Below, in pieces: positions 5,238-33,241 of a stretch of DNA of 33,322 nt. How positions within the stretch are numbered: the stretch's first letter is position 1; each line of letters begins with the position of its first letter. The translations under genes were made by a program, and so were the position numbers. Source of the stretch: a virus; the IMG/VR virus record IMGVR_UViG_3300030098_004527, positions 1-33,322 of that record, one strand, 5' to 3'. The notes under the pieces were generated by a model. It made no database searches. It was given only the letters and a program-made list of their open reading frames with translations, and was not told where the DNA came from.

Positions 5238-5249
5238 TAAGGAGAGAAT

Positions 5250-6497
5250 ATGCGAACGTTAAACACAAAAGAAAAGTTAGTACGAGATAAGATGGCATTG
5301 TGTGGTCATAAGACTACGAGTAGTTTTTCAGTGCTGATTCATACGATACCGTTCTATCTAACTAACGATCTAACACCAACAGGTTGTACGGATGGTTACA
5401 ACGTTTGGATAAATGAAGGTTATTACGAAAGTCTTATCGAAGGACAACGTAGATTCCTTATTGTGCATGAGCTTATGCACATCATACCAAACCATCTTGT
5501 TGTGTGGCAGTCATTACGTAAGAAACATCCCCTGTGTGCAAATAAGGCAATGGATCATTGGAATAATCTTACGATTAAGTATGAGATTGATCCCACTCAA
5601 ACCTTTCTTGTACCAATCAAAGGAGCTTTATGTGACGACAAGTATAGGGTTAATGGGGTTATTCTAGATACCAAGTCAATATTTGATGATTTATATAAAC
5701 AGGTAGATAAAGGAAAGGAGAATGGTAATGGACAAACCTCTGGTGATAACTCTAAACAAAAAGTGCAACAAGAGGGAGATAGCAATGAGGGGCAGACACT
5801 TGATGAGCACATGTGGGACAAAGCGCAAGAGATGGCGAAAGATGAAACCAAGTCAAAAAAGATGAGGGAGCAAATTAGAACATCTTTACGTCAAGGTAAG
5901 ATGTATTCAAAACGTACGGGTGGTAACACATTAACTAGTATAGATAAGATATTAGAGTCTAAGATAGATTGGAAAGAATTGTTACGATCTTTTCTTACTA
6001 ATACTAACTCTGATAGAGAAGTATCTTCATGGCGCAGACCAAACCGTAGGTGGATACATCAAGACATTTACCTACCGTCAATAGTTAGTGAGTCAGCCGG
6101 GGACTTAGTTCTTGCCATAGATAGGTCTGGTTCTATTGGGACTCAAGAAACACAGGCTATGCTTGGGACATTAGCTAAGATTTGTAAAGATACAAAACCA
6201 AGTAAGGTTTATATTGCTTATTGGGATACTGTTGTTAATGACCCTGTTGAGGTGTATGAACAGCATGAGCTAGAGAATATTATTTCCTCTACTAAACCAC
6301 GAGGTGGTGGTGGCACGGACCCAAGGTGTATTCCTGCGTTTCTTAAAGAGAAAAAGATCAACCCAGAAGCTGTTGTGGTGTTGACTGATGGTGCTGTAGG
6401 GAGTTGGGGTAAATGGGATTGTCCTGTGTTTTGGGGTATCACACAAAAGGGTATCACTGCAAACGTAGGTACAAGTGTTCATGTAGACGTTAACTAG
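5250..6497 (+). CDS. Metallopeptidase-like plus VWA-domain protein (DUF2201-like)
   Basis: This is a 415-residue protein with two parts. The N-terminal region has HELMH at residues 73-77 followed by IIPNH, an HExxH zinc-binding signature as in DUF2201-type putative metallopeptidases. A Gly/Asn/Gln-rich linker spans about 153-185. The C-terminal domain (about 283-415) has a complete MIDAS pattern: DRSGS at 291-295, GGGGTDP near 352-358 and LTDG at 379-381. This is the usual partner architecture for MoxR ATPases. It probably acts in the cytoplasm, since no signal peptide is seen. GGAGAGAAT precedes ATG 5250. Whether it cleaves a protein or only binds metal is not settled by sequence. Confidence 0.87.
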   Translation: MRTLNTKEKLVRDKMALCGHKTTSSFSVLIHTIPFYLTNDLTPTGCTDGYNVWINEGYYESLIEGQRRFLIVHELMHIIPNHLVVWQSLRKKHPLCANKAMDHWNNLTIKYEIDPTQTFLVPIKGALCDDKYRVNGVILDTKSIFDDLYKQVDKGKENGNGQTSGDNSKQKVQQEGDSNEGQTLDEHMWDKAQEMAKDETKSKKMREQIRTSLRQGKMYSKRTGGNTLTSIDKILESKIDWKELLRSFLTNTNSDREVSSWRRPNRRWIHQDIYLPSIVSESAGDLVLAIDRSGSIGTQETQAMLGTLAKICKDTKPSKVYIAYWDTVVNDPVEVYEQHELENIISSTKPRGGGGTDPRCIPAFLKEKKINPEAVVVLTDGAVGSWGKWDCPVFWGITQKGITANVGTSVHVDVN

Positions 6498-6505
6498 GAG
6501 AAACA

Positions 6506-6550
6506 ATGAGAGGACTAATGAAAACAAACCTACAAGCAGAGGAGGAGTAA
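6506..6550 (+). CDS. Possible 14-residue minicistron
   Basis: ATG 6506 with AGGAGA upstream opens a frame encoding MRGLMKTNLQAEEE and a stop at 6548-6550. Its Glu codons are the GGAGGAG ribosome site of the gene at 6555, 4 bases later. It could be a leader peptide that couples translation, or simply a remnant. Only the frame and the ribosome site are visible. Confidence 0.25.
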   Translation: MRGLMKTNLQAEEE

Positions 6551-6554
6551 ACAA

Positions 6555-6893
6555 ATGAAAGTAAGAACTGAAGCTGCAATAGTACTTGTAGATGGAGCAC
6601 GTTTGAATGTAGACGTGGGAGTACATCCTGATAACAAGGAACTAGGACATTGGTTTTTTGATGAGCATGCAGTATTAGATAGTAAATTGTTCTACTGGTT
6701 TACCGAAAGCGAGTTTGCAGATGTTATAAAGCAGTTGGATTCTGGTAAGTCATTTAAGTTAGAGGACAGTATATACATCCTTACCATGTCAAACAATAAT
6801 GAACCGTTTGTAGTTAGCGAAGAAAATAAGGACGACTACGACTATCAAGAAATACATAACCAAAGACTAAGAGAAATAGAAAGGGGGCAATGA
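6555..6893 (+). CDS. Hypothetical protein
   Basis: This is a 112-residue soluble protein of unknown function. ATG 6555 follows GGAGGAG (6541-6547). The first half is beta-rich (AAIVLVDGARLNVDVGVHPD) and the second ends in a charged helix (EIHNQRLREIERGQ). The stop overlaps the next start in an ATGA arrangement. It is the first of five consecutive small overlapping genes that precede the unknown 412-residue protein. Confidence 0.7.
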   Translation: MKVRTEAAIVLVDGARLNVDVGVHPDNKELGHWFFDEHAVLDSKLFYWFTESEFADVIKQLDSGKSFKLEDSIYILTMSNNNEPFVVSEENKDDYDYQEIHNQRLREIERGQ

Positions 6894-7120
6894 TGAGTGA
6901 TTTTAACGAAATGAGGAGAACGCTAATGAGTAATGAAGCTAACGTGGTTTTAAAAGAGAGATGTTATGCCGAAGCAATCGAGGAAGTTGATAACATGACG
7001 CTAAAGCAACTTAAGTCTGTTATTGAAATTCACCCAGATACCCAACAACATATTGATGGGTACATTATAGCAAAGGCAGAACAGAAGTTTGATAATTTAC
7101 CTGACGTGGGAGGAGAGTGA
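6893..7120 (+). CDS. Hypothetical helical protein
   Basis: This is a 75-residue helical protein (YAEAIEEVDNMTLKQLKSVI in the middle) of unknown function. The start is ambiguous. ATG 6890 or 6893 follows AAGGGGGC and overlaps the previous stop. An in-frame ATG at 6926 has a better AGGAGA site. The protein ends VGGE, and the codons supply the GGGAGGAGAG ribosome site of the next gene. Confidence 0.65.
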   Translation: MSDFNEMRRTLMSNEANVVLKERCYAEAIEEVDNMTLKQLKSVIEIHPDTQQHIDGYIIAKAEQKFDNLPDVGGE

Positions 7121-7362
7121 TGAGTGAAAATAAATCTAATTTTTGTTGTGCAAAAGAAAAACTCTTTACTAGTGGAACAGTTCAGGATTTGATAGATGTC
7201 TTGGAGTTGATAGATGACAAGTCATTGCCTATCAGGGTCATTGAACAAGGTAGGGAAGACGAGGGCATTGACAATTTCTGGCTGTGCGACATTGAAGTTT
7301 CTAGCACAGGTGCTAGTGGCTATGAGCAATCTGGAGAAGTTCGTTTGATAGGGGGAGAGTGA
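7120..7362 (+). CDS. Hypothetical small protein
   Basis: This is an 80-residue protein. ATG 7120 overlaps the previous stop (TGATG) and has GGGAGGAGAG just upstream, so it is preferred to GTG 7117. The pattern TVQDLIDVLELIDDKSLPI, then WLCDIEVSSTGASGYEQSGE, looks like a small phage protein type with an N-terminal helix and a C-terminal beta region. I cannot name it. Two adjacent Cys (FCCAK) occur near the N-terminus. Its stop again overlaps the next start. Confidence 0.7.
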   Translation: MSENKSNFCCAKEKLFTSGTVQDLIDVLELIDDKSLPIRVIEQGREDEGIDNFWLCDIEVSSTGASGYEQSGEVRLIGGE

Positions 7363-7505
7363 TGAGTGAAGTAGACGTTGAAAAACTTGTTCGGTTGTTA
7401 AAGGAAATTAATGTTTCAAAGTATTCACAAGCTGAATACAGAGAAGTTGTTGATTTAATTTATACGGTGGTTAAAACACAAACTAAAGGAGAAACAAATG
7501 GATAA
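7362..7505 (+). CDS. Small hypothetical protein
   Basis: This is a 47-residue frame, MSEVDVEKLVRLLKEINVSK and onward. ATG 7362 overlaps the previous TGA, with GGGGGAGAG as ribosome site. It is helical, with two amphipathic segments. The last codons (AAAGGAGAAACAAATGGATAA) include the ribosome site and ATG of the next gene, an 8-base overlap that suggests translational coupling. The function is unknown. Confidence 0.55.
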   Translation: MSEVDVEKLVRLLKEINVSKYSQAEYREVVDLIYTVVKTQTKGETNG

Positions 7506-7653
7506 AAAATATAAAGCACTTTTAATTAGAAAAGAAGTAAGAGATTTAATTGATGAAAAGAAACTTATTGTAGAAAAGTTGTTGGGGTTAGATTTAAATT
7601 ATAGTCAGTTCATAACGTACTTATGCAACACGATTAAAAAGAAAGAAAGATAA
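7498..7653 (+). CDS. Small protein, possible ribbon-helix-helix DNA binder
   Basis: This is a 51-residue basic protein starting at ATG 7498 after AAAGGAGAAACA. The layout YKALLIRKEVRDLIDEKK, then a second helix LDLNYSQFITYLCNTIKK, resembles the strand-helix-helix pattern of small RHH (CopG/MetJ-type) proteins, where a short strand is followed by two helices. The match is structural impression only, and no diagnostic residue settles it. It lies in the small-gene run before the 7672 gene. Confidence 0.5.
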   Translation: MDKKYKALLIRKEVRDLIDEKKLIVEKLLGLDLNYSQFITYLCNTIKKKER

Positions 7654-7671
7654 CTAAAAAAGGAGAGTAAA

Positions 7672-8910
7672 ATGAGAACGAAACTTTGTACAACTAAATA
7701 TGATTTATATAATTATAATTTCTTTGATGACAACAACCTTGTAAAATACCCTGCTGAATCTAGGGAGTGTGACTGTTTTAGTAAGTGGTTATCAGATCTA
7801 CAGGTAGCGATAGATAAAGCTTCTCATGGTACTTGTGAATTACATATAAAAATTGGAGGAAATAATTGGAAGCCGGGAGCACCACTAGATTCTTTTACTA
7901 ACAGCGAAAACGTGCATATAACCTTATCGAGTAAAATAAATTCAGTAAGTAAAGATGTTTTAGATATTCTAGGCTCTCGATATGATCCTATTCCCTACCA
8001 AATGTTTGTAATAAAATTAACACATAACATCGTAGACTTTTACGATCCCTTGTTGGTTAAATCTGGTGGAGTTCGTAAGGTCCCTCATTGGACTATAGAA
8101 GAAACAGATGTTTACAATTTAGATACCTATTGGGTGAGGCAATTTAAAGATAGTCTGAGTAGTCAGAAAAAACCTAGAGATGTAGTGATGTCGACAACAC
8201 TAAGGGATAAAGTGATTAAAAAAGCTGTTGAGTTTATAAAATTTATTGGCGATCAAAACTACTCAAGGATAGCTAGTAAGTTTGCTGCACATTGTGAGGA
8301 GAGGGCAAGGTATTCTCTTTCTGAATATCAAAGAACTTTAACAGACAGTTTTGAATGTTCTGCAGTGTCTGTTAAAAATACAATGGTTTTATGTGAGGCA
8401 GTTCTTGATATCAAAGATAAACTTGGTTTAGGGAAAAATGATTCTTGTAATTTTACATCGTCTTTACTCCAAGAGGTTGAAACTAAGTCTTTACCAAAAT
8501 ATGCAAAATATAAAAAACAGTCAAATTGTTTAGTTAATATACATCTTATTTTTAAAGTGCCTGAAGTTGTAGGATACCCTGATGGTGCGTATGCGCTTAT
8601 TAGTAAGATGGGATTAAATTGGAGCGCAACTAGCAAAAAGATAGACGATAAGTATATTACTTTTCTAACAGACGTTTTTTGTCCCGGTCTTCAGGGTAAG
8701 TTTAGTTCAGAAGATTCTGAAATTATAAACGCCCACGAGTCCGTGCTTTTTTACTCAGATATTGATTCTATGAGCACGAACGTCAACTCTTTAGTATCTT
8801 TATTAGCTATGACACGTCCAGAATCAGATCACGTAGTAATGATGGAGGGGGTTGGATTTTGGCATCCTTCTAGCGATACGTATTTGTTGACAGAAAGAGT
8901 TGTCAGATGA
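7672..8910 (+). CDS. Large unknown protein
   Basis: This is a 412-residue protein that I do not recognise. ATG 7672 follows AAAAAAGGAGAG, the same strong leader type as the MoxR, 4317, VWA and helicase genes, so high expression is likely. It has no signal peptide or membrane segment. The N-terminal half contains a Cys cluster region (RECDCFSKWLSD), a Gly/Asn-rich turn (IKIGGNNWKPG) and beta-rich stretches. The C-terminal half is mixed alpha/beta with HIHLIF-like hydrophobic strands and ends in a basic tail. Ten Cys in total is high for this window. There is no catalytic motif I can defend. Confidence 0.78.
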   Translation: MRTKLCTTKYDLYNYNFFDDNNLVKYPAESRECDCFSKWLSDLQVAIDKASHGTCELHIKIGGNNWKPGAPLDSFTNSENVHITLSSKINSVSKDVLDILGSRYDPIPYQMFVIKLTHNIVDFYDPLLVKSGGVRKVPHWTIEETDVYNLDTYWVRQFKDSLSSQKKPRDVVMSTTLRDKVIKKAVEFIKFIGDQNYSRIASKFAAHCEERARYSLSEYQRTLTDSFECSAVSVKNTMVLCEAVLDIKDKLGLGKNDSCNFTSSLLQEVETKSLPKYAKYKKQSNCLVNIHLIFKVPEVVGYPDGAYALISKMGLNWSATSKKIDDKYITFLTDVFCPGLQGKFSSEDSEIINAHESVLFYSDIDSMSTNVNSLVSLLAMTRPESDHVVMMEGVGFWHPSSDTYLLTERVVR

Positions 8911-10753: not shown

Positions 10754-10762
10754 GGGGTGGTT

Positions 10763-11395
10763 ATGGCTATGGGTAAAAAAAAGAAATTACGAGAGAAAAT
10801 TTACAAAGAATCGAATAGACCTGTAGGTCATTATCTGATGCCAATAGATAGTTTAGGTTTATCAAATAGAATAAACAATTCGTTAAAAGCATATGGTATT
10901 TTTTACATCGCAGACTTAGTGCAATTTACATCAAAGCAACTATTAGAGTGTGTACCAAATATTAACAAAATATCTATCGAAGAAATTGAAAAAGTTATCT
11001 TTAAGCATAGATTTACTTTTGAAACTAAAATTTTAATAGACCCTTTGCTTAATGAAATTATTGATAATTTCCATACACATATAGTAGATAGCATGAAACA
11101 ACGAAGAGAATCAACTTTAAAATACGATCCTGTGCTTTCAAGACCAATAGCTGATACATTTATGCGAGACGCTAACATAGACACTTTACACGGAGAGGGT
11201 ATTTATACAATTCTTGATTTAGTCCAACGCACTGAAAATGAAATATTACATATACCGTCGATAGGGAAGAAGTCTTTAGATGACATAAAAACAATTTTAA
11301 AACAAAGAGGTTTATCTCTTGGTATGTCAATAACTCAATTAGTTAAGATGAAAGACGAAGAACGAAAAGACATCATAAGAAAAGGGTCATGGTAA
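10763..11395 (+). CDS. Protein with two RNA polymerase alpha-CTD-like domains
   Basis: This is a 210-residue protein with a basic N-terminus (MAMGKKKKLREK). ATG 10763 is chosen over GTG 10757 because AGGGGGTGG precedes it. Domain 1 (residues about 26-86) matches the alpha C-terminal domain of RNA polymerase: R36, N39 and K42 line up with E. coli R265, N268 and K271, then YIADLVQ, then N66 and S71 for N294 and S299. Domain 2 (about 121-195) aligns without gaps with the E. coli linker and CTD from YDPVLSRP through DLVQRTE, IPSIGKKSLDDIK and RGLSLGM. It lacks R265 and N268 (A137, D140) but keeps G168, K170 and S171. It may bind UP-element DNA or regulators in place of host alpha. No assembly domain is present. 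Confidence 0.85.
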   Translation: MAMGKKKKLREKIYKESNRPVGHYLMPIDSLGLSNRINNSLKAYGIFYIADLVQFTSKQLLECVPNINKISIEEIEKVIFKHRFTFETKILIDPLLNEIIDNFHTHIVDSMKQRRESTLKYDPVLSRPIADTFMRDANIDTLHGEGIYTILDLVQRTENEILHIPSIGKKSLDDIKTILKQRGLSLGMSITQLVKMKDEERKDIIRKGSW

Positions 11396-22160: not shown

Positions 22161-22197
22161 GCCCTTGGTGGTTGGACATACCATCAAGGGCTTTTTT
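22161..22197 (+). terminator. Strong intrinsic terminator between converging operons
   Basis: GCCCTTGGTGG (22161-22171) pairs with CCATCAAGGGC (22181-22191) over 11 pairs with one G-T, around a 9-base loop. Six T follow (22192-22197). The T run contains the stop codon of the minus-strand gene. On the minus strand the same hairpin is followed by six T only after 8 bases, so it may also stop transcription from that side, less efficiently. Confidence 0.85.
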
Positions 22198-25100
22198 ATC
22201 TACCTAAGATATTTTTCTTTATATACGGTATATTTATAATCCGTATAATGTCGTTATCTAACTTATCTATCTCATTCACTAACCTAGTTTTTTCTGCTGA
22301 TGGTAAGGTACGATCTTCATTTATAATCCGTTTAAGCGCCCTAGTATCACTAAGTTGCGTTTGAACTGCTCGCACTGATTCACCTAAAATATATAGTTTA
22401 AGGTTTTCATCTTCTTCTAAAAGCCTAATTAAACCTTCAAAATCTTGACGATTTATTAATAAGTTAACTGTGTCCGTAACTCTTGCCTGTTCATCTCTAA
22501 ATTTATAGTATTCCGACTTATCACCAGACGGTATCTTGTCATACGAAAAAGTTTTAAATGCAGGTAATTCATACAGGTTATATTCCTTACGCCCCATAAC
22601 TTTAGAACTAATCACGTTAGTTAAATCTATTAAAGTGCCCCCTGCTATACCTGTCATTCCTCTAATAAGATATTCTGTTTTTATAGGACTTAATCCAGTA
22701 AACCGACCAATCATTTTAGTTAATTCAGATGTTGAAGAAGTAAATTGTTCCTCCGAAGCCACATCTTCTAATCCTCTAGGAACTATGGGAGCATCTCTAA
22801 AGAATGAGTAATTTAAAAACACTTCAGCAGGGGCTTTAAAAGCTTGGGGTGTTAAGTTAGGACTAGAGAATGAATCAAAAGCCGCACGTGTTAGGTTTTC
22901 TCTAAATGTTTGAGCATCTTCTGGTCTTGCTGTACCTTGACTAATAACATAATTAATAGATCTTTCAGGTATAACTTTAAACAAAAACCCTATCTCTGGA
23001 GCAACAGGTATTTTACGGCCCGTACCGGGTATTATAAAGTTTTTATCTTTTACGTACTCATTTTGTTGTTGATACTCTTCGTCCTCTCCAACTAAGAACG
23101 TATAAATTGTACTAAGTGTCGCCAGTTTGAGGCCTGCTTTTAAGAATAATCTTTGTGCTATATATTTTTCCCTTTGGCTAACGCCCACACCTTGCATGGT
23201 TCTTAAATACACACTCATACCTTGAATATAAGCGTTCATAAACGGAACAATTTGTCTTAACACACTTACATATCTATTTGCACCTTGACGTTTAAAATTA
23301 ATAATTTCTTGCGCTGCAATACGTGCTGCTAATACATCACCATCAGGAAACTGTTCTGATTTTGTTTCTTCTAAAGTTTGCTCATACACAGCCCTTCTTA
23401 GGTTAGCATCCGATGCTATTGAAAAGTTTTCAAAAAAATCAAAAAATTTTCTAGTTCTACCTCTTTGTTTTAAGTTAAAAGCAGTAAGCACTTCATCTTT
23501 TTCTCTTCCCGGCATAAAATCATATGCGCCTACGATACCATACCGCTTTAATTGTTCCACTACTTCATTTGTACCTAATCTAACTGAACCATAACTTAAC
23601 GGATTTATAACTCTGGTTGCTGTTTTGAATGGGTTATCTGTTCCTGATAAAGTCATAGCTCTAAAACTATCTTGAAACAACTGACTAATAGCAAACTGTG
23701 GTGTTGCAGTAACACCTTTTCTTAATAAATTAGACAAACCTGTCATAGCTTTTATAATAGGTCCACTTATCACTTCAAGACCTTTAAACGCATACACGTC
23801 TAAGATATCGTCAAATGCGTAGTATTCTGCCTTACCATTTCTATATACGGTTACTATATTATCTGCATCTTTATCTACATTTTTATCCGGAATTTTTTCT
23901 ATATTTAAATCATTTTTAATCCAAGTATCTACAATAGATAAAGCCGCATGGTTACGCATAGAACTTTTGACCATCCAAAACGTAAGACCAACCATATTTT
24001 CTAAAACACTATTTATTTCGTCTTTACTACCCTTTAGTGGCCCCATTTCTCTAGTGCTAAGTGGTTTAAAAAATTGTGCAGGAGTTTGTGAAAATATCTT
24101 TTCTTCATTTTCTTTTATTCTGTCCCAAGGCACATACCCTATAGCCTTTTTCCACTCTGTTGCCCTTTCTTTAGATAGTCTTCCAGCGTCAACCATATTA
24201 TCAAGCAAGCCGTTTTTAAAAGAAGTAAATTCTTGATGAATTTCATTTATTATGTCGTATCTTTTTAGTATCTCTTCCCCTACTTTTATTTGCTCCTTAG
24301 TAGGTAATAACTCATCAGGGATTATACCTTTTCCTATTAAGTCTTTTGCTCTAATTATAATTAAACCATCATTAACTAATTTTTCTGCTTTTTTAATATC
24401 TCCTAGCTCTTCTCCTAACCTACCAACTTTCTCAAATACCCCTGTTAAAGAAGCATCTCCTTGAGTAGCTTCAAACCCAGATACCTTGTTAAAAACTAAC
24501 CTACCCAACCTCATCACTGCGGTAGACAAAGAATCAGCATGTTCTGTTTGTAACATTAATATATCAGGTCTAATATCGCCTATCGCATCTCTAGTTTTAT
24601 TGTTGTATAATTTTCTTGCTTTTCTCTCAACAGAAGACCCTTTGTATGCTATTTGTGCTTCTAGTTTCCTTGCAACATTAGAAAGAAATCTAGGCGCTTC
24701 AAAAATAGCACTAGATATTGTGCTAAAAAAACCGGGTGTTGGGCCTTTAGAATTAGAAACATTCATATCTAAAAAGTTATTGACTAACATATCATCAGCC
24801 ATGACTGAAGCATCTCTAAACATAAACCTTTCAGCGCCTGTTTCTGTACCCACGGTTGCTTTACGAGACTTGGCTACAATATTGTTAGTTACATAATTAG
24901 CAGACTGAGCAATGATATTTTGTACTTCGGTGTTGCTTAAAACAGGAAACCCTAAATTCTGCATAGATTGTTTTATTGCTTTTAGAGTGCGTTGAATTAA
25001 CTTTTTCAAAGCTGCCATGAACCCTTCTTGTCCTGCTTCAGGTCTTCTTCCAACAAACGTATTTTCTACTGCTACTGCAATTAATTCTTCAACAGCTTCC

Positions 25101-28100
25101 TCTTTAGATAGTCCTTGTTCTTTCATTAGTTGGTTGGCAGCATATTGTATTTCTTTGTCGGTGTTATACAACCTATTCATAGTTTCTTTATAATCTTTAC
25201 CAAGAATAGATCTAAGACCATAGTGTCCTATAGATTCGTGCAGAATAGTTTTTAATACATCTTTTTTGTTTGTGTTATTAGCTGCTATGACATAAACAGT
25301 GTTTGTATTACTGTCAAATATACCTTTTATGTTTCTCTGCTGTTCGGGTGATAACCTATTTAGTTTCTCAAGACTATACATACCCTCCATAATTCTATCC
25401 ACACCGCCTACAGCCATATCTTGTTCTGTGATTTTTATTAAATCAGGAAAGTTATTTACAACTTTAATTTCAGGTGCGTTTTTCCAACCTTTTGTTAGCT
25501 CTTTTACAAAACCCTCTATACGTCCAACAAATTCAGGAACTTCTATAATCTCAGGTTCTTTTCTTCTACCTCTTGGCGGTTTTTCAGCTTTTTCTCCTTT
25601 AAATTTAGGAGTTACACGAACATTTTCTACTTTCTCTATAAATTCAACTGCTTTTGCTTCGGTTGGTGAAACCTCTCTTACTTCTTTTTTAACTTCTTCA
25701 TATATCCCTTGTAGTTCTTTTATATCATTTAGTAATAAATCTTTTTCGCCTTGCAGCTCTATATCATCAGGTTTTTCTTTTAATTCTTTATTTACATCTC
25801 TTAAATCTAATTCTGCTTTTATTAATTCTGCTCTTGCAGCGGCGAGTTTTCTAATTGGTCCTTTTATTAATAAATCTTGTATTTCTTTTGCAGAATTATC
25901 TACATAGCTTTTTTGCGCTTTATTTAATTTGTTATAAACTTTTCTAGCGGCTCCTCTAGCTCTTTTTTGTGGTCTTAACAAATCTCCCGCTAGTAAACGT
26001 AATCTTCTTTTATTTAAACCGTCTTTCCCTTTACCGCCTTCAGCTACAAACTGTTCTACATATTTATTAAATACTTTTTGTTCTGCAGTTTGTGACTCTT
26101 CATATTCTTCTCTAGTAGCAGCTTTTTGTTCCTCTGTGGCTCCTGCAGGTGAGCTTAGTCTTTCAACATAAGGTTGGTATAAATTTAAAGCAGGATTGTT
26201 TTCAAATATCGTATCTTTTGTTATTGTGTTAACATTTTTTTGTTCTAATTCAACTACTTTTTTCTCTTTATTAAACTCTTTTTGTATTTTTGGTACAATA
26301 GCTTGGTCACGAATTAAACTTGGGTCTTCTGCATAAGCTCTACTAAAGTCTTTCAATGTCATATTCGCACGAACATTAGCCTCTGCGCCTCTTTCTTGTA
26401 CAGAATCTCTATAGTCATCACCCTCTCTATCCGAGTAATATTCTTTTAGTAAAATATTTTTTTGTTCAGGTGTAGAATTTTCTATTGCTTCACGGAAAAA
26501 GTTTTGTTGGTCAGAAGTAAGAAACACTCCCGGTTTCCCTGCTTCTCTAGCAATATTAAGCGCTTGCTCAAACGTGTTTTCAACAACTTTTTTCCTATTT
26601 TTATCAGATTTTTCTTTTATTCTTGGTAAAAATTCTTCAATCTTAGTTGCTACATTAGGATGTCCTTTAGCATACGTATCTAAAGCATCGTAAAAATCAG
26701 GATTCGTAATAGACTCACCCTTTAAATTAGGATTAGCTCTAAAAAAAGAACGTGCGGATTGAGATGGAAGATTAATCTTTTGTTTTAAAAAATCAGCAGT
26801 AATTTTATCCGTATTTTTTATTTTAGTGTCAACTTGATTTTTTCTTTTATTTATTCTGTTATTAGCATCCTTTGTTCTATTTTTAAAAGAAGGTACATTT
26901 ACGTTTTTTTGTGCCTCATCTAAGTTACGGTTTTTATCTACTTCTCCTGATGTAACTTGGTTTGCGGTATCAGGAGTTATATCACCCTTTTCATCAAATA
27001 ATCCTAATTGAGTATCTGGCACTGAAATTGGAGATACAAAACCTTTTTTTCTTTCAGCTTCTGGTAATAATTTTTTCTTTTTTTCAACCTTTCCTCTTAA
27101 ATTTTTTATATAATTTTCTATTTTTTGTATTTGTGGTTCTATTTTTGCTCTATCTTGAGGGGCAGATATTTTTTGTTGTTCTATCAAATCTTTTTTGTTT
27201 CTTTCAAATCTAGTTAAATCTTGCTCCGCTTCTAATATATATTGTCTAGCTTCTTCTCTATCTTCTTCTTTTGTTATCGGTCCCTCAACTCTCTTTTCTG
27301 CCGCTTTTATTAATTCTGATTGCGCTTTATCTTCTTCTGTAGGTTGTGGTAATCCTGTTAATGCAAGTTGATCGCCTTCCTCAATGGGTCTTTCTTTTGG
27401 TTTGGCTGGTTCAATTTTTCTAGCTCTTGGTACGGCTAAGTCAAACAACCCTTGTGCTAACGCACCAACTGCGCCACCATATGCGGCTTCTTCTCCTATA
27501 CCTTCTACAAGTTCTTGTTCAGGTTTATACCCACTTTTTGCAATCGCATTTTGTGCAAACCCTGCAGCGGCTTCTGTAGCTGCTTCTATCCCACCTGTCT
27601 CTAACGCTCTACCAACTCTTTGCACACCACTTTCAATAACACCTGCGTCTAATTTTTTTAATATCCTAGCAGGGGCAAAAAGTTCTAATAGACCTACAGG
27701 TGCACCATACGCTGTTGCTGTTGCTATTTGTTCTGGAGTAGCTTCTGCTTCTTCTGCACGTAACCTAGCTTCTCCTGCTCCTGCGCCCGTAGCTAATGCA
27801 GTAACTGCAGCTTTACCAACTATACCAAAAGGAGCAAACGCTAAAAATGGAATAAAAGAACCAAATGCTTCGCCAAACTTCCTACCAATAGTTTCTTCAT
27901 ATCCGGGAGTTGGCGCTGCAAATTCTTTAAATGGTTTTAATACATCTGTTGCTGTATCACGGATACCTTGCTCTGTTACAAGGCCCTCGTCATCTGCTAA
28001 TGCAGAAGCACCAACAGCCGCAGTTTCAACTAACCCTGCCGCACCGGGAATAATACCTTTAAAAAATTCCTTTGTTTGGCCAGTTATGTCGCTAAAGTCA

Positions 28101-28255
28101 AGCTCGTCATCTGTTGCTTTTAGGGCTGTCGTTAACTGATCGTAATTTAAACCTTCAGACTGTAAATACATTTCTACTGTACCTTCAGGAGCTTCTGAAT
28201 TTGCTATTTTTAAGACATTTCTAGCTATTGCTTCATATCTTTGTCTTGGAGTCAT
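22196..28255 (-). CDS. Giant polyvalent-type virion protein with HExxGH zincin motif
   Basis: This encodes 2019 residues. The N-terminal 270 residues are rich in Ala/Gly with hydrophobic stretches (about 60-85 and 130-160) that could cross a membrane. Residues about 280-900 are highly charged, with long coiled coils (Lys/Glu/Gln-rich). HESIGH at 1006-1011, followed by YGLRS and an EEAVEELIA helix, resembles the zincin variant HExxGH found in polyvalent proteins and in dipeptidyl peptidase III. The C-terminal third has ATPQFAISQLFQDSFRA (about 1520) and an INFKRQGANRY...VPFMNAYIQG segment (about 1655), matching LPD38-type domains. Such proteins are packaged and injected. ATG 28255 has AAAGGT upstream. 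It is the last gene of the minus-strand operon seen. Confidence 0.8.
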   Translation of the reverse strand: MTPRQRYEAIARNVLKIANSEAPEGTVEMYLQSEGLNYDQLTTALKATDDELDFSDITGQTKEFFKGIIPGAAGLVETAAVGASALADDEGLVTEQGIRDTATDVLKPFKEFAAPTPGYEETIGRKFGEAFGSFIPFLAFAPFGIVGKAAVTALATGAGAGEARLRAEEAEATPEQIATATAYGAPVGLLELFAPARILKKLDAGVIESGVQRVGRALETGGIEAATEAAAGFAQNAIAKSGYKPEQELVEGIGEEAAYGGAVGALAQGLFDLAVPRARKIEPAKPKERPIEEGDQLALTGLPQPTEEDKAQSELIKAAEKRVEGPITKEEDREEARQYILEAEQDLTRFERNKKDLIEQQKISAPQDRAKIEPQIQKIENYIKNLRGKVEKKKKLLPEAERKKGFVSPISVPDTQLGLFDEKGDITPDTANQVTSGEVDKNRNLDEAQKNVNVPSFKNRTKDANNRINKRKNQVDTKIKNTDKITADFLKQKINLPSQSARSFFRANPNLKGESITNPDFYDALDTYAKGHPNVATKIEEFLPRIKEKSDKNRKKVVENTFEQALNIAREAGKPGVFLTSDQQNFFREAIENSTPEQKNILLKEYYSDREGDDYRDSVQERGAEANVRANMTLKDFSRAYAEDPSLIRDQAIVPKIQKEFNKEKKVVELEQKNVNTITKDTIFENNPALNLYQPYVERLSSPAGATEEQKAATREEYEESQTAEQKVFNKYVEQFVAEGGKGKDGLNKRRLRLLAGDLLRPQKRARGAARKVYNKLNKAQKSYVDNSAKEIQDLLIKGPIRKLAAARAELIKAELDLRDVNKELKEKPDDIELQGEKDLLLNDIKELQGIYEEVKKEVREVSPTEAKAVEFIEKVENVRVTPKFKGEKAEKPPRGRRKEPEIIEVPEFVGRIEGFVKELTKGWKNAPEIKVVNNFPDLIKITEQDMAVGGVDRIMEGMYSLEKLNRLSPEQQRNIKGIFDSNTNTVYVIAANNTNKKDVLKTILHESIGHYGLRSILGKDYKETMNRLYNTDKEIQYAANQLMKEQGLSKEEAVEELIAVAVENTFVGRRPEAGQEGFMAALKKLIQRTLKAIKQSMQNLGFPVLSNTEVQNIIAQSANYVTNNIVAKSRKATVGTETGAERFMFRDASVMADDMLVNNFLDMNVSNSKGPTPGFFSTISSAIFEAPRFLSNVARKLEAQIAYKGSSVERKARKLYNNKTRDAIGDIRPDILMLQTEHADSLSTAVMRLGRLVFNKVSGFEATQGDASLTGVFEKVGRLGEELGDIKKAEKLVNDGLIIIRAKDLIGKGIIPDELLPTKEQIKVGEEILKRYDIINEIHQEFTSFKNGLLDNMVDAGRLSKERATEWKKAIGYVPWDRIKENEEKIFSQTPAQFFKPLSTREMGPLKGSKDEINSVLENMVGLTFWMVKSSMRNHAALSIVDTWIKNDLNIEKIPDKNVDKDADNIVTVYRNGKAEYYAFDDILDVYAFKGLEVISGPIIKAMTGLSNLLRKGVTATPQFAISQLFQDSFRAMTLSGTDNPFKTATRVINPLSYGSVRLGTNEVVEQLKRYGIVGAYDFMPGREKDEVLTAFNLKQRGRTRKFFDFFENFSIASDANLRRAVYEQTLEETKSEQFPDGDVLAARIAAQEIINFKRQGANRYVSVLRQIVPFMNAYIQGMSVYLRTMQGVGVSQREKYIAQRLFLKAGLKLATLSTIYTFLVGEDEEYQQQNEYVKDKNFIIPGTGRKIPVAPEIGFLFKVIPERSINYVISQGTARPEDAQTFRENLTRAAFDSFSSPNLTPQAFKAPAEVFLNYSFFRDAPIVPRGLEDVASEEQFTSSTSELTKMIGRFTGLSPIKTEYLIRGMTGIAGGTLIDLTNVISSKVMGRKEYNLYELPAFKTFSYDKIPSGDKSEYYKFRDEQARVTDTVNLLINRQDFEGLIRLLEEDENLKLYILGESVRAVQTQLSDTRALKRIINEDRTLPSAEKTRLVNEIDKLDNDIIRIINIPYIKKNILGR

Positions 28256-28267
28256 GATATTTTACCT

Positions 28268-29938
28268 TTAAGTATCCTCAAGTGTAAATCCGTAACTCTC
28301 TATTTGTTTTCTTATTTGTTCTTTCGGAATAGTATCACCTTTAGTGTTTGCTATAGTGCTCATAAATTGTTTAAGTATTTGTGAGCCAGTTTCTGGATAA
28401 GCTAACTTAATGGCTTCTGCAAGTATCTCTCTCTCACTTTCATCTGCATTAGCATACTTCATAGCTAAGTCTGATCTACTTAAACTCTTAACACTAGCAG
28501 CAATTTGTTGAGCCTTCACTGTTGCTCCCGCTCTAACTTTAGCTACATCCATGGCTCTGTCATTGTTAAGTATGCTAACAACTAAATTACCTTTTACTTG
28601 TTGGTAAGTTCTTTGTGCTGCCGCTGCGTTATTTTCTGCGTTCATTTGCATCTTCGCTGAAATATTCGCTATTCCTTCAGCTCTTCTATTTTTCAATTCT
28701 TCAAGTTTAAGTTCAGAATCAAGCACTTTACGTCTAGCATCTTTAGTAGCTTGTATACGTTTAGCAAGAGCAGGAGCAACTTGCATACCCGCTTTTCCTA
28801 TGTTCACTATTGCATTTGGGTCTTTTCCTCCCATAATAGCAAAACCAAGTTCTAATAAACTCATATAAACAGCTTCTTTTTTATCACCTGCTAATGCTGC
28901 TTTTTCTGCTTGAATTGCAGCGGTAGCTGCTGAATCACTAAGATCTACACCTGCTTTTTTCAATATACTTTCAGCTTTTTGAGAAAAATCTACAGGTGCT
29001 TCTACCCCAGATCCAATTGCACCGTTTTGAGAAATATTTACAGGTTTTAATATCTTCTCAGCTTGTGCAAAAGCATCTTCAACAGATATAGGTTTCGTAT
29101 CCACTCCTGCTTCTTCTATAGCAGCATCCGTTGCTGTTTCAGGTACTATTGGTCTTTTTTCTTCTACTTCTTTTTTTACTTCTGGTTCAAACACACGTTG
29201 ATCTCTAAACGGATCACGAGAATCTTGTTCAGCTATTCTTCTGTCAAGTTCTTCTTTTGTTATCTCTTCTGTTTGATCTGTTTTACGAAGGTTGGTAATA
29301 GGGTTGGTAATAGGTTTACCTTCTTTATCTCTTTTTTCAGTAAAGAATTTACGAGCTGGGCCTTCAATCCCTTCCTCACCAGTATCAAGGGCACGAGTTA
29401 TAGGGAAAAAAGGTTTTAAAATACCACTTTTAAGAGTATCTGTTACAACTCCAGAAATTGGATCAAGAATATATCGTTCAAATCCTGTTCTACCCTCTTC
29501 ACGTTCCCTCAAAGTATCTACAAAACCTTTATTTTGAAACGCAACAATACCACCACCCGCTCCTCTAAACATATTTGGGTTTATTGGTAAACCTGCAATT
29601 GCTGTCTGTCTTGGATTTCGTTGTTGTGGTTGAGGTGTTAATAATTCTCGTAAACCAGCAGTAGTAACAGTCTCTTGTTGTGGTATCTGTGCTCGATCTG
29701 CCTGTTGCTTTATTCTTCTAGCTGCATTAATAACAGCACCAAATTCATCAGAAGATTCACTAGATAACTTACCGAGAAACCCTATTGGATCGGAAGAGGA
29801 TAAAAACTCATTAGCTTTTGCCTCTATACCTCTCATTTTTTCAGTTGCTGCTTGTTTTACACCTGCAGCCATTTGTTTCAACCCTTTTTCTAAAGCTTTT
29901 TGTTTCGCATTTATCTGTTGTAACGCTTTTATACTCAC
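28268..29938 (-). CDS. Internal/virion-associated protein
   Basis: This is a 556-residue protein. GTG 29938 is the start, supported by AGGAGG 6 bases upstream in the end of the previous gene. The N-terminal 90 residues are basic helices (KQKALEKGLKQMAAGVKQAA). GGGIVAFQNKG near 128-138 is a Gly-rich motif that I associate with internal proteins of marine podoviruses (from memory, not tested). The middle is Pro/Glu-rich and disordered. The last 200 residues are Ala-rich coiled helices (KDARRKVLDSELKLEEL). It probably forms part of the ejected core or tail with its neighbours. No enzyme motif is seen. Confidence 0.7.
   Translation of the reverse strand: MSIKALQQINAKQKALEKGLKQMAAGVKQAATEKMRGIEAKANEFLSSSDPIGFLGKLSSESSDEFGAVINAARRIKQQADRAQIPQQETVTTAGLRELLTPQPQQRNPRQTAIAGLPINPNMFRGAGGGIVAFQNKGFVDTLREREEGRTGFERYILDPISGVVTDTLKSGILKPFFPITRALDTGEEGIEGPARKFFTEKRDKEGKPITNPITNLRKTDQTEEITKEELDRRIAEQDSRDPFRDQRVFEPEVKKEVEEKRPIVPETATDAAIEEAGVDTKPISVEDAFAQAEKILKPVNISQNGAIGSGVEAPVDFSQKAESILKKAGVDLSDSAATAAIQAEKAALAGDKKEAVYMSLLELGFAIMGGKDPNAIVNIGKAGMQVAPALAKRIQATKDARRKVLDSELKLEELKNRRAEGIANISAKMQMNAENNAAAAQRTYQQVKGNLVVSILNNDRAMDVAKVRAGATVKAQQIAASVKSLSRSDLAMKYANADESEREILAEAIKLAYPETGSQILKQFMSTIANTKGDTIPKEQIRKQIESYGFTLEDT
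29290..29313 (-). repeat. Two copies of a 12-bp tandem repeat in coding sequence
   Basis: GGTTGGTAATAG is repeated exactly (29290-29301 and 29302-29313). On the minus strand it encodes PITN-PITN within the disordered middle of the 556-residue protein. It is a small in-frame duplication. Confidence 0.6.
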
Positions 29939-29940
29939 TT

Positions 29941-30861
29941 TTAGCCTCCTAGTAATTTAGCTAAACTTAAACCTGTAATACCAAGACCTGTTAACTGTGA
30001 GGCAAAGCTTGGTGGAGGTGTAGCAGTTGTTTGTGTGGTATCAGTAGTTGGAACACCACGAAGAATATTTGCTAAGTTACCTAACTGCTGCTGCCCAAAC
30101 AAATCTCTCTGTCTTTGGTAAGCTGCTTCTGCTCCCAACCCTTCTTGCATAATACCTCTTTCTAAATCACCAAAGGCACCAAGTGTTTTGAGTCGGTCTA
30201 ATTCTGCAGCTTGTTGTTGAACTCCTAATGCGCCTTGTTGTTGTCCTAGTGTGCCAAGACCTTGAGCCACCGCCATTTGTGCAGCACGGTCTGCTCCAAA
30301 CTGTTCTCTAGCACGATCAAAAGCAGATTGCAAACCTTTAGCTTGAATATCGCCTAGTTGTTGACGAAGCCCTGACTCTCTGGCTCCTGTTAAAAGAGCT
30401 TGTCTGGCCCCACCATACGTGCCTTGTCTAGCAGCCGCTAAATTAGCGCCTAATTGTGCTTTTTTAGCAGCATCAATTGCTTTTCTTTGTTCTATATCAA
30501 CAACAGCTTGTTGGTACGGAGACATATACGCTTGCGCCGCCGCACTATCAAATCTACCCGGTGTTGCTAACAGACCACTAATACCTGCTTCTTGAGCTTG
30601 TTGTGCCGTAGCAAATGCGTCTGGAGCTTGTAGTTTGGCTATCTCCCTACCAAGTTGTTGTTGTCCTGCAGACATCGGCGCAATACTACCAAGACCCATA
30701 AGTGCTTGTGAGCCGGGACCATATACTTCATCAAAACCTTTTGCAAAAATCTCTTGGGCTTTAGGTAAAACACCTGTTATACCCTCATCAGGATCGCCCA
30801 GAAAATATGGTTCTATTACTTCAGGTATATCACTTGTTACTTGAGTTACTTGTTGTACCAT
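29941..30861 (-). CDS. Ala/Gln-rich virion protein, probable internal or tail-tip protein
   Basis: This is a 306-residue protein with an unusually high Ala, Gln and Gly content. After a 40-residue acidic start, residues about 60-250 are long amphipathic helices (AYMSPYQQAVVDIEQRKAID, GANLAAARQGTYGGARQALL). The YMSPYQQAVVDIEKR/GGARQAL pattern is one I associate with structural genes of marine podoviruses (from memory). The C-terminus ends in a hydrophobic helix (FASQLTGLGITGLSLAKLL). This could be a channel-forming or DNA-ejection protein. GAGGAAA precedes ATG 30861. Confidence 0.68.
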   Translation of the reverse strand: MVQQVTQVTSDIPEVIEPYFLGDPDEGITGVLPKAQEIFAKGFDEVYGPGSQALMGLGSIAPMSAGQQQLGREIAKLQAPDAFATAQQAQEAGISGLLATPGRFDSAAAQAYMSPYQQAVVDIEQRKAIDAAKKAQLGANLAAARQGTYGGARQALLTGARESGLRQQLGDIQAKGLQSAFDRAREQFGADRAAQMAVAQGLGTLGQQQGALGVQQQAAELDRLKTLGAFGDLERGIMQEGLGAEAAYQRQRDLFGQQQLGNLANILRGVPTTDTTQTTATPPPSFASQLTGLGITGLSLAKLLGG

Positions 30862-30871
30862 AATTTTTCCT

Positions 30872-33241
30872 CTACGCTGGTAACGTTTTGTTTACATTTA
30901 TTTCAGGTGGTTGTTTTGTTGTACCATGACGTGCAGTTCTAACTCTGTCCATCATAGAATATAATCTTTCAGCTCCTGCATTTGAGGAACCATTTCCTAA
31001 ATCAGCTACTACATCAGCAGGAACTACAAACTCTCCATCGGCAAGACGTGCTTCTTGCATACCTCCTATGTTCGCTTTTATTGAGTCACTCATCCCATCT
31101 CCTGCGCCATCTAAATATCTAGGAGGCAACGCAGATACACCACCCTTGTTATAACCATATGGATTTGCTCTTAGTGTCTCTAATATACGTTTTCTTTTTC
31201 TTTCTTTATCTTCTGCATCTGCTGCTGTTAAAGCTTTGTATTCTGCTTGTTGTTTAGCATACTCATCTCCAGCTTGTGTGGCTGCTATACCTCCAACAGT
31301 TGTTAGAGCAGGGGTAATTAACTCTTTAGCAGCAATATCTCCTGAAGTTAAACCTCTAAACGTGTCAGCCATTCTTTGCCCTGTACCAACAGCTTCTGCT
31401 TTTAACCTGTCGATCCCAAAACCTGAAGGAGCTGTTGATGTTCCAGCAGTTGTATCATAAGGAGAATAAGAAGCTCTTCCAACTCCAGTGTTTATAGATT
31501 GTCCAGTTTGAGTGGTCAAGGTTTTAGGAACAAAACTAAAAGTTTCTCCAGTTCTAGGGTCAAAACTAATATTTTGCCCCACCTTTCCAGTTATCATGGG
31601 GTCTACACCGACTACATTTTTTGCTGTGCTTATAGTTGAACCACCTTGAAATCCTTCAATTCCAGTAGGACCAGATTTAACCGCAGCGCCTGTTCCCGGC
31701 TCTATACTTATGCCGCCTCCTGCATCTATTCCACCACTTTCTGGGCCAATCGGGGTGCCTGCAGCCTTTGCTAAACTTCCAATACCATACGTTGTAAGAC
31801 CACTTGTCAACGCACGTTTTAAATCAAACTTACCATCTCCTCCTGCAACCCCACCTGCTAATCCACCCAATAGCGCTTGTCTGCCTAAAGTTAAACCTTG
31901 AAACCCCGGTATAAATGGCAACACAAACGGAGCTATTTTAGTTACACCTCTTAATGCTTTACCTATACCCTTAAACAGTCCCCCAATGAATAAACGAGGT
32001 ATACCGTTTTCATCTACCACACCACCACGTCTATATCCTAGACTGGCTAGTCCACCAGCTCTTTTACCTTCTGCCTCCGCCGCTTCCTCCGCCGCTTCTT
32101 TTGCTAACTCTGCTTTATATTGTGCGCCAAACAAATCACCAAGTTGTGTAAAAGTATCAGGTAGCTTTTGTTGCTGAGTATCAATAGAATAAGGTGTTGT
32201 AAACTGAGGGCTTGCAAAAACACCCGCCATAGTCCCTGTTGTATCTGTCGGTCTTAATCTTTCAATACCTGCCGTAGCACCTTCACCTGTTGTTACGGGT
32301 GCCGCTCCAAACGTAGTAAAATCTAAAGGCTTAGTATCATAAAACCCCTTTTCTAAATCTGCCGAATCTGCCGATCTTATTGTAGGTATGCCTAAATTAT
32401 CTCTAAGGCTAGTTATTATTTCACCTTCTTTACCTATAGTGGGATCACCAAATCTAGCAGCTCTAATAAATCTATTAACTTCTTGCGGCTCTAAAAATTC
32501 CCCATAACTATCTTTATAAAATTCCATTTCTTTGTTAGTAGGAAGTCGATTTAACACATCCTCGTAAAGTCTAGGCAATCCACCTTGTGTCGTGCTTCTA
32601 TATCTAACTGCTTCTGGAGAAGACTGAAACTGTCTTCTTTCAAAAGGGTCTAAAGCATCACCGTATAAGTTTTGGTAATATTTTATTTCCTCCTCACTTG
32701 GACCTCTACCTAATTCAGTTTGATAAAGGTCTATTATTTGACCTGCAGGTATATTTGCAATTCCTGTGCTTACATCTCCTCCTACATCTCCTCCTACATC
32801 TCCTCCTACATCACCACCTGCATCTCCTCCCAACCTTGCAAACTCAGGAGAAGCTCTTAATTCAGCTTCTAAGTTTTCAACAGTAATTCTTCTACCCCCA
32901 TGAAAATCTAACCCTGCTGGCTGCACATCTCTACCAAAAACTTTATTATATGTGGCGTTTATTTCTTCTTCTGTTAACGGCGAAGGCTGTGTTGTTGTTT
33001 CTGTTTTTGCTTGATTTTGCCGTGCTAACGTGTTGGCTTGGGCTTCCACTATAGGCGCAAGAAGGTCTGGATTTTTTGCAATTGAAAGGTCTGGAACATT
33101 ATCCCCCATACCAGCAAATATCTCAGGGTAATTATCCCTAACATACGCATCGGCGTTATCTCCAAAAAAACCTTTTTGTAAACCTTCTGCCCTAGCTTGA
33201 GCATAACGAGTTGCAGGTGTTCCTGCATCAAATTTAGCCAT
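30872..33241 (-). CDS. DUF4214-like repeat virion protein
   Basis: This is a 789-residue protein. Three related segments at about 94-136, 168-212 and 223-263 carry the pattern Y..V(F/L)(G/N)R followed by an aromatic helix and a final SPE or short helix, as in DUF4214 repeats. A GGDV repeat (142-157) separates the first two. The middle is Gly-rich, with RRGGVVDENGIPRLFIGG near residue 405. The C-terminal 80 residues (GDGMSDSI, GEFVVPADVVADLGNGSS, YSMMDRVR) form a motif I recall in marine podovirus structural proteins. The role is probably tail or internal virion. ATG 33241 has GAGAGAAAG upstream. Confidence 0.7.
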   Translation of the reverse strand: MAKFDAGTPATRYAQARAEGLQKGFFGDNADAYVRDNYPEIFAGMGDNVPDLSIAKNPDLLAPIVEAQANTLARQNQAKTETTTQPSPLTEEEINATYNKVFGRDVQPAGLDFHGGRRITVENLEAELRASPEFARLGGDAGGDVGGDVGGDVGGDVSTGIANIPAGQIIDLYQTELGRGPSEEEIKYYQNLYGDALDPFERRQFQSSPEAVRYRSTTQGGLPRLYEDVLNRLPTNKEMEFYKDSYGEFLEPQEVNRFIRAARFGDPTIGKEGEIITSLRDNLGIPTIRSADSADLEKGFYDTKPLDFTTFGAAPVTTGEGATAGIERLRPTDTTGTMAGVFASPQFTTPYSIDTQQQKLPDTFTQLGDLFGAQYKAELAKEAAEEAAEAEGKRAGGLASLGYRRGGVVDENGIPRLFIGGLFKGIGKALRGVTKIAPFVLPFIPGFQGLTLGRQALLGGLAGGVAGGDGKFDLKRALTSGLTTYGIGSLAKAAGTPIGPESGGIDAGGGISIEPGTGAAVKSGPTGIEGFQGGSTISTAKNVVGVDPMITGKVGQNISFDPRTGETFSFVPKTLTTQTGQSINTGVGRASYSPYDTTAGTSTAPSGFGIDRLKAEAVGTGQRMADTFRGLTSGDIAAKELITPALTTVGGIAATQAGDEYAKQQAEYKALTAADAEDKERKRKRILETLRANPYGYNKGGVSALPPRYLDGAGDGMSDSIKANIGGMQEARLADGEFVVPADVVADLGNGSSNAGAERLYSMMDRVRTARHGTTKQPPEINVNKTLPA
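32772..32830 (-). repeat. 12-bp tandem repeat encoding GGDV
   Basis: About five copies of ACATCTCCTCCT (plus strand) lie in a row. Three are exact (32772-32807), a fourth is varied (ACATCACCACCT), and a partial fifth starts GCATCTCCTCC. On the minus strand they encode Gly-Gly-Asp-Val units that form a flexible linker. Each unit also reads as GGAGG on the minus strand, so the array resembles repeated Shine-Dalgarno sequences. Confidence 0.85.

Follow-up and report, generated by a model that had tools for sequence, protein, structure and literature searches.

A family of giant polyvalent-type phage proteins with a single, exchangeable zincin-like domain

The DNA analysed here, called the window throughout, is the whole 33,322-nucleotide (nt) stretch formed by positions 1 to 33,322 of IMG/VR virus record IMGVR_UViG_3300030098_004527, and its minus strand encodes a giant protein of 2019 amino acids (aa) that carries the zincin-like motif HESIGH. 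Exactly one zincin motif was present in each of 89 distinct giants that share the N-terminal module of this protein, and zincins of different types were found exchanged between nearly unchanged flanks. We put at about 0.5 the probability that the giant is the largest ejection protein of a short-tailed phage and that its one zincin would be a peptidase acting on protein targets in the new host. A previous reading of the letters alone (the sequence-only reading) had described a gene of this length taking 18% of the window, with HESIGH at residues 1006-1011 and an LPD38-like C-terminal part; the open reading frame (ORF) is real, accounts for 18.2% of the window and lies on the minus strand, where that reading had named no strand, and both the motif and LPD38 were located in the protein. 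Its parts are as follows.

22196..28255, minus strand: giant gene, polyvalent-type protein of 2019 aa with an ATG start, last gene of the minus-strand (late) block
27416..28087, minus strand: N-terminal module (N-module), residues 57-280, Gly/Ala-rich (34%)
25544..27415, minus strand: variable charged middle, residues 281-904
24866..25543, minus strand: zincin-like domain, residues 905-1130
25223..25240, minus strand: HESIGH, residues 1006-1011, with predicted zinc ligands H1006 and H1011 and predicted general base E1007
25085..25087, minus strand: Glu1057, predicted third zinc ligand (EELIA, second helix)
22244..24634, minus strand: C-terminal module (C-module), about residues 1208-2004
22601..23083, minus strand: LPD38 (PF18857), residues 1725-1885, Pfam E=6.6e-29, above the curated cut-off

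HESIGH was the sole HExxH or HExxxH match in the window protein, which has 6 His in total, and among 20,000 shuffles of the sequence HExxxH arose in 0.17% and HExxxHxG in 0.015%. Long charged coils had been described on both sides of the motif; a charged stretch does precede it (residues 281-900, D/E/K/R 38% vs 30% overall), whereas downstream the zincin-like domain continues with its second half, followed by the LPD38-containing module of about 800 residues. In a Pfam scan of the whole protein LPD38 alone exceeded the cut-off, with just DUF2680 in addition at E<=1, so that Pfam gave no second enzyme, no RNA polymerase domain and no match to the variable middle; an NCBIfam scan returned no match and the PHROG matches were to three families without function. 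The N-module contains the two most hydrophobic 19-residue segments of the protein (residues 68 and 137), is 47-66% identical to the window protein in 17 relatives, and was modelled with AlphaFold2 as all-helical at low confidence, with a predicted local distance difference test (pLDDT) score of 59. Distant relatives have the protein ends alone in common, namely residues about 55-280 (43-55% identity) and the C-terminal 700-800 residues. By its great size and its LPD domain, this multidomain phage protein fits the description of a polyvalent protein; as for functional domains of unrelated kinds, it has the zincin-like domain beside LPD38, with no second enzyme by Pfam.

For the zincin-like domain, it had been proposed that the region be modelled for a zincin fold with a third-ligand Glu near residue 1050, and Glu1057 fits that guess. 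In a first alignment of five relatives, the H, E, H and G of the motif and the later E (E1057), A and E were all kept. An IMG/VR profile scan for the domain gave 214 stretches matching the pattern, of which 95 were confirmed and 80 kept; together with earlier loci these yielded 72 distinct domains, in which HExxxHxG is invariant by construction, since the search pattern required it. E1057 was not forced in this way and was kept in 71 of the 72, as was A1060 (71/72), with E1064 in 60/72; across the 8 sequences of subset A4 it was invariant. The AlphaFold2 model built from the 72-row alignment (pLDDT 79.8, core 86-94; predicted TM score 0.71) runs helix-strand-helix-strand-strand-helix...helix, with strands at 929-933, 978-981 and 986-990, the motif on helix 997-1012 and E1057 on helix 1051-1067. 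This topology matches the order of three strands, motif helix and Glu helix described for the zincin core of polyvalent proteins (Iyer et al. 2017, PMC5512222), and the model is on that account zincin-like. No Pfam family covers the domain, because the zincin-type names among the families listed (DUF6782, M6, Zincin_1) matched just 2-5 members each at E 0.03-0.11; in all, the scan of the 72 domains touched 76 families at E<=1, the best among the 25 listed at 0.0007. From alignment and model, the domain is very probably a zincin, and we infer that it binds zinc and has peptidase activity.

To define the family, the N-module was used in an IMG/VR scan that gave 388 confirmed stretches, the best 80 of which were kept. 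The first set began with 117 N-module ORFs, of which 86 were uncut at the 3' end (31 dropped), leaving 57 distinct sequences, all but one of which (56) exceeded 1000 aa; the second set, 124 ORFs from two scans with other lead sequences, lost 26 cut at the 3' end and added 33 more distinct giants. Five of the 56 (L029, L031, L034, L068 and L100) are named from HExxxH-pattern loci, their contigs having also been returned by the N-module scan (L114, L113, L137, L119 and L166), and duplicates as well as L015 (504 aa, N-module on its own ORF) were left out of the counts. Exactly one motif was found in 56/56 of the first set (31 HExxxH and 25 HExxH, never both) and in 33/33 of the second (7 HExxxH and 26 HExxH), for a combined 89/89 with 38 HExxxH and 51 HExxH. 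The conservation of H1006, E1007 and H1011, on which the sequence-only reading had made its claim depend, is borne out by this count. Clustered at 90%, 70% and 50% identity, these 89 giants fall into 81, 67 and 43 clusters. As controls, reversed sequences carried the motif in 1/89 cases (1/56 in the first set), shuffled sequences in 60/5600 (about 1.1%), and other ORFs without a profile match in 0/454. The motif lies 966-1780 aa from the C-terminus, with a median of 1043, and the C-module ends 10-28 residues before the C-terminus in 55/56 (the exception, L138, has LPD38 by Pfam) and stands at the end in 31/33 of the further giants.

The N-module is common in IMG/VR yet was unmatched at E<=0.01 in a tblastn search of 50,697 phage records, and a scan of GTDB genomes gave no confirmed relative with it, for which reason no host was assigned; the phages that carry it are seemingly a group without isolates in that collection. 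The zincin profile, by comparison, found 10 loci in GTDB genomes, from several phyla. Two relatives have a further enzyme-like domain in the variable middle, ART-PolyVal at residues 1110-1290 in L024 and HATPase_c (GyrB/Hsp90-type) at residues 838-979 in L116. On contig IMGVR_UViG_3300008259_000233 (L015/L176), from position 2736, the N-module occupies its own 504-aa ORF, directly followed by a 2724-aa ORF with zincin and C-module, an arrangement that is either a natural split or a sequencing frameshift.

Profile comparison divided the zincins of the first 56 giants into group A (35), group B (15), group C (5) and a single sequence, L116 (D), so that at least three sequence groups fill the slot. 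Group A consists of all 31 HExxxH sequences plus four with HExxH, namely L127, L188, L133 and L140, which carry HELFHKGL or HEVFHKGL, match the group-A profile (7e-12 to 5e-17) and, when aligned, lack one residue between the two histidines, thereby forming a natural bridge between the two spacings. Within group B, parts T2-T5 and T2-T4 matched at 97.5-97.7% probability, although the T4 alignment wrongly included L116 and the assignment of L152/L165 to the group is slightly less clean. A and C compared at 8% probability, and A and B at 65-81% over 40-41 columns around the motif, which suggests that the latter two may be distant kin. On a tree of 55 C-modules (a quick tree with long-branch warnings), the zincin groups needed 14 changes where the minimum possible was 3 and shuffled labels needed a mean of 18.1, reaching as low as 14 in 1/200. 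Since 14 is below the shuffled mean, zincin type is partly inherited, and it is often exchanged.

The exchanges could be followed in pairs of near-identical phages. In L125 (A) and L178 (B), identity is 96-100% in most 60-residue segments up to residue 1380 and 98.4% over the last 864 residues, while the cassette between them is replaced (residues 1618-2215 vs 1628-1979); their DNA is 97.4% and 98.6% identical on either side of it, over most of the shared stretch. The flanks of L160/L165 are 91.5% and 98.8% identical. In L155/L152, with flanks of 91.7% and 89.6%, about 260-310 residues were exchanged, little beyond the zincin region, and L144/L129 and L131/L143 showed similar swaps with lower left-flank identity.

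Six isolate genes with the C-module were examined, and the N-module matched none of them. One of them encodes gp25 of the podovirus PTXU04 (PMC6563267), PTXU04_00025 at locus L200, which has HEIIVHYGLR with both downstream Glu kept and matches the group-A profile (4e-26) and then, as in the window giant, that of the C-module (8e-97); it differs from the window giant in having no N-module and other small genes upstream. PTXU04_00025 was scored as a 'Fit', essential gene in CRISPRi-ART, its knock-down strongly lowering plating, and its expression was among the toxic or interfering ones (PMC11879866). That paper terms it a putative polyvalent protein, enigmatic, and the part of its text available makes no mention of protease, zinc or ejection. 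Vibrio phage 1.232.O has an HExxxH domain (2e-31) before the C-module, and Vibrio phages FGH and 1.183.O have HExxH. The last two are Pelagibacter phages. In HTVC010P (L205) the annotation breaks the C-module gene region, 5109-8732, into several short hypothetical proteins that partly overlap, where its HTVC034P counterpart is a single 1229-aa gene, and frameshifts or mis-annotation are a possible cause. The HTVC034P protein lies in a position like that of T7 gp16 (internal virion protein D, which carries a cell-wall enzyme), with an IVP-B-like gene and a 580-aa protein on one side and the tail fibre on the other.

The sequence-only reading had called the protein injected-type, which fits its surroundings. 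Upstream of the giant, and at its downstream end, the window contains:

28268..29938, minus strand: 556-aa protein directly upstream of the giant, in a position like DEV gp72 / N4 gp51
29941..30861, minus strand: 306-aa protein two genes upstream, phrog_4287 'DNA ejection protein', E=2.1e-13
30872..33241, minus strand: 789-aa protein in the same gene block, sub-threshold DUF4214 match
22161..22191, plus strand: terminator-like hairpin separating the giant gene from the convergent early block, 1 found vs 0.3 expected

For the 556-aa protein, Pfam and PHROG gave no informative family match. Among loci with enough sequence, a 306-like gene stood upstream of the giant in 40/42 and a 556-like gene in 36/45, calls that come from iterated profiles with some drift possible, several '306-like' ORFs being 800-1200 aa. 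This recurring order of small gene, gene of about 550 aa and giant is the podovirus ejection order, in which the giant follows two smaller ejection genes; it resembles that of N4 and of DEV, whose gp73-gp72-gp71 are the reported equivalents of T7 gp14-gp15-gp16 (PMC10925440). A 99% identical copy of the giant occurs in a 47.5-kb contig, IMGVR_UViG_3300030329_003021, whose minus strand also encodes terminase, portal and major head protein; judged by strand and circular permutation, these and the giant would form one late block crossing the record ends. Beyond the giant, the plus-strand genes are replication-type (DNA polymerase A, SNF2 helicase and DUF927, by Pfam). The plus strand also carries a second zincin-like gene of the window, 5250-6497, whose 415-aa product has HELMH and matches Pfam DUF2201_N 'putative metallopeptidase' (1.4e-23) plus the VWA-like DUF2201 (1.5e-10), near an AAA-type ATPase gene at 3149-4285 (plus strand; phrog_1297, 6.2e-31). 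Another plus-strand gene, 10757-11395, encodes 212 aa with two stretches matching the RNA polymerase alpha C-terminal domain (RNA_pol_A_CTD, 2.7e-22), possibly a mimic acting on host transcription.

The closest analogy of layout is with phage N4 (locus L332), where gp50, the virion RNA polymerase (vRNAP), follows gp52 and gp51. Like the window giant, gp50 is the last late gene of its minus-strand block, faces the early genes, has smaller ejection genes upstream and places a zincin directly before a large C-terminal domain. The vRNAP has been described as a likely membrane-spanning N-terminus, the polymerase, a C1 domain with HExxH (2124-2375) and a helical C2 (2376-3500) (PMC12633501). Group-B zincins of the window's relatives aligned to C1 by hhalign at 95% probability over 136 columns, although hmmsearch at default settings found no match to the group-B model in N4, and the window's own group A aligned weakly (32%). 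Between the C-module and C2 there was no alignment (0.5%), and N4 has an RNA polymerase domain where none was matched in the window giant. The N-module profile showed weak similarity to a 45-residue stretch of the N4 N-terminus, which was not relied on. Because the C-module does not align to C2 and group A matches C1 weakly, we describe the two proteins as alike in layout and make no claim of common descent for their ends.

We infer the following course of events from this arrangement. As the largest ejection protein, the giant would be carried in the head and leave with the DNA; its N-module is probably membrane-active, and its C-module, with LPD38, would probably serve packaging and passage. 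Between them a single zincin domain (HESIGH ... E1057) sits in a slot that is always filled once, with the occupant exchanged by recombination, a pattern best explained by a peptidase that would cut proteins of the newly infected cell and be under pressure to change. A fuller version, 'one slot, many blades', joins delivery ends that stay constant and one obligatory slot for a zincin (A, B, C, the single D and the group-A HExxxH/HExxH indel) to an essential, host-directed entry peptidase under diversifying selection, and we hold it tentatively, at a little less than even odds. That a phage-delivered peptidase might act soon after entry had been suggested from the window sequence, and the timing may be as suggested.

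What the domain does, and whether its exchange is real, can be read in other ways. The sequence-only reading likened the six-residue spacing to dipeptidyl peptidase III (DPP III); the HExxxH spacing is as it stated, but it is a known zincin variant in polyvalent proteins (PMC5512222). An M49-like exopeptidase would have the same spacing and a Glu about 50 residues later, but the spacing is not diagnostic, since in four of the closest relatives a one-residue deletion has turned the motif of this domain into HExxH. Scanning the protein against Pfam at E<=1 gave no M49 match, the domain alone gave four other families at that threshold, and the domain of ~225 aa compares with 675-786 aa in characterised DPP III, so the likeness is confined to the motif and we rejected kinship, leaving this explanation a negligible chance. 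It is also improbable that the metal site is kept for other HExxH-type chemistry or as a structural or regulatory metal domain of the ejection machine. HExxH does occur outside peptidases and the N4 C-terminal domain regulates its polymerase (PMC12633501), and for this clade no activity is reported in the literature available. Against this, the general-base Glu and both His are present in 89/89 and the third Glu in 71/72, and a purely structural part would hardly allow sequence-distinct groups in its slot; we argue for catalysis because a zincin is present throughout the family with its catalytic residues kept. Chimeric metagenome assembly might produce apparent swaps, all swap loci being IMG/VR contigs known from assemblies, but this seems very unlikely given several pairs at graded divergence, one A/B swap in which each version occurs on two separate contigs (L155, L160 vs L152, L165), another with two vs three (L004, L019 vs L020-L022), and the reading frame and exactly one zincin kept each time.

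The more serious rival is self-processing, in which the zincin would cleave the chain it belongs to, either within the head or once in the new host, and so free the middle and terminal modules, with the cassette bringing its own cleavage site. One zincin in 89/89 giants would read as a required general function, and the motif position is constant relative to the C-terminus. Iyer et al. (PMC5512222) favour such a role, P1 DdrB having a zincin and being processed before packaging; N4 vRNAP, whose zincin has the equivalent position, is packaged without processing according to the same paper and was prepared full length for a 2025 structure (PMC12633501). The N4 polymerase thus points to a host substrate and P1 DdrB the other way. 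We regard self-processing as possible but rather unlikely, and we favour a host substrate because unrelated zincins replace one another between flanks up to 98-100% identical; where the swap is confined near the zincin, as in L155/L152, unrelated peptidases would have to recognise the same cleavage site if it lay in the constant flanks. Apart from the DdrB precedent, several results weigh against a host-directed ejected peptidase. The C-modules of HTVC034P and HTVC010P (2/6 isolates) come with no zincin motif, so the C-module can do without one. None of four PTXU04 gel bands assigned by peptide fingerprinting was gp25, as reported in the available part of PMC6563267. The zincin type is somewhat clustered on the C-module tree, as partial inheritance would have it, and the exchange may be neutral. 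For the fold, Foldseek gave no match in the PDB at E<=0.001, and in a second structural look Z was <=3.9 throughout, zinc-peptidase-type entries taking 5/50 rows at Z 2.8-3.7 (anthrax lethal factor twice, 4l7a, jannalysin and PprI). Nuclear receptor matches from Foldseek (E 0.036-1, TM <0.25) were judged meaningless. In BFVD there were 8 matches at E<=0.001, of which 3 were named large polyvalent proteins, yet with root-mean-square deviations of 6-17 A, which lends weak support. When the full sequence of the window protein was searched against solved structures, none matched at E<=1; the 72-row profile matched five, the best two being leucine-rich repeat proteins (designed or natural) on the helical tail, and these were left unused.

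No domain is more common in polyvalent proteins than the zincin, and HEXXXH forms were described there by Iyer et al. (PMC5512222), whose HEXXXH metallopeptidases resemble the window's in their spacing, the Glu on the second helix and their setting in a giant phage protein with an LPD domain. In that survey zincin-like metallopeptidases as a whole occur in about 36% of polyvalent proteins in one to five copies, whereas here exactly one is found throughout one family. The roles proposed are self-processing, in-virion and effector functions, and exchange of zincin types between near-identical phages is not described in the available text; we found no title on zincin exchange in polyvalent proteins in the open-access literature. 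As far as that literature shows, four things are new: the one-per-protein rule in this family, the swapping of zincins of different groups among near-identical phages, the occurrence of an indel form inside a single group, and a link to an essential coliphage gene.

In the literature available, the role of polyvalent-protein zincins is a set of alternatives, and the informative pattern in this family is exactly one zincin per protein, of exchangeable type, between constant flanks. PTXU04 gp25, being essential in a cultured coliphage, makes the question testable, both as to whether the zincin is needed and as to whether its substrate is self or host, and in group A, where some members lack one residue of the motif, HExxxH and HExxH can be compared as they occur naturally within one fold. 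If the proposed function is true, the zincin slot would in its logic be like receptor-binding cassettes, but acting inside the cell.

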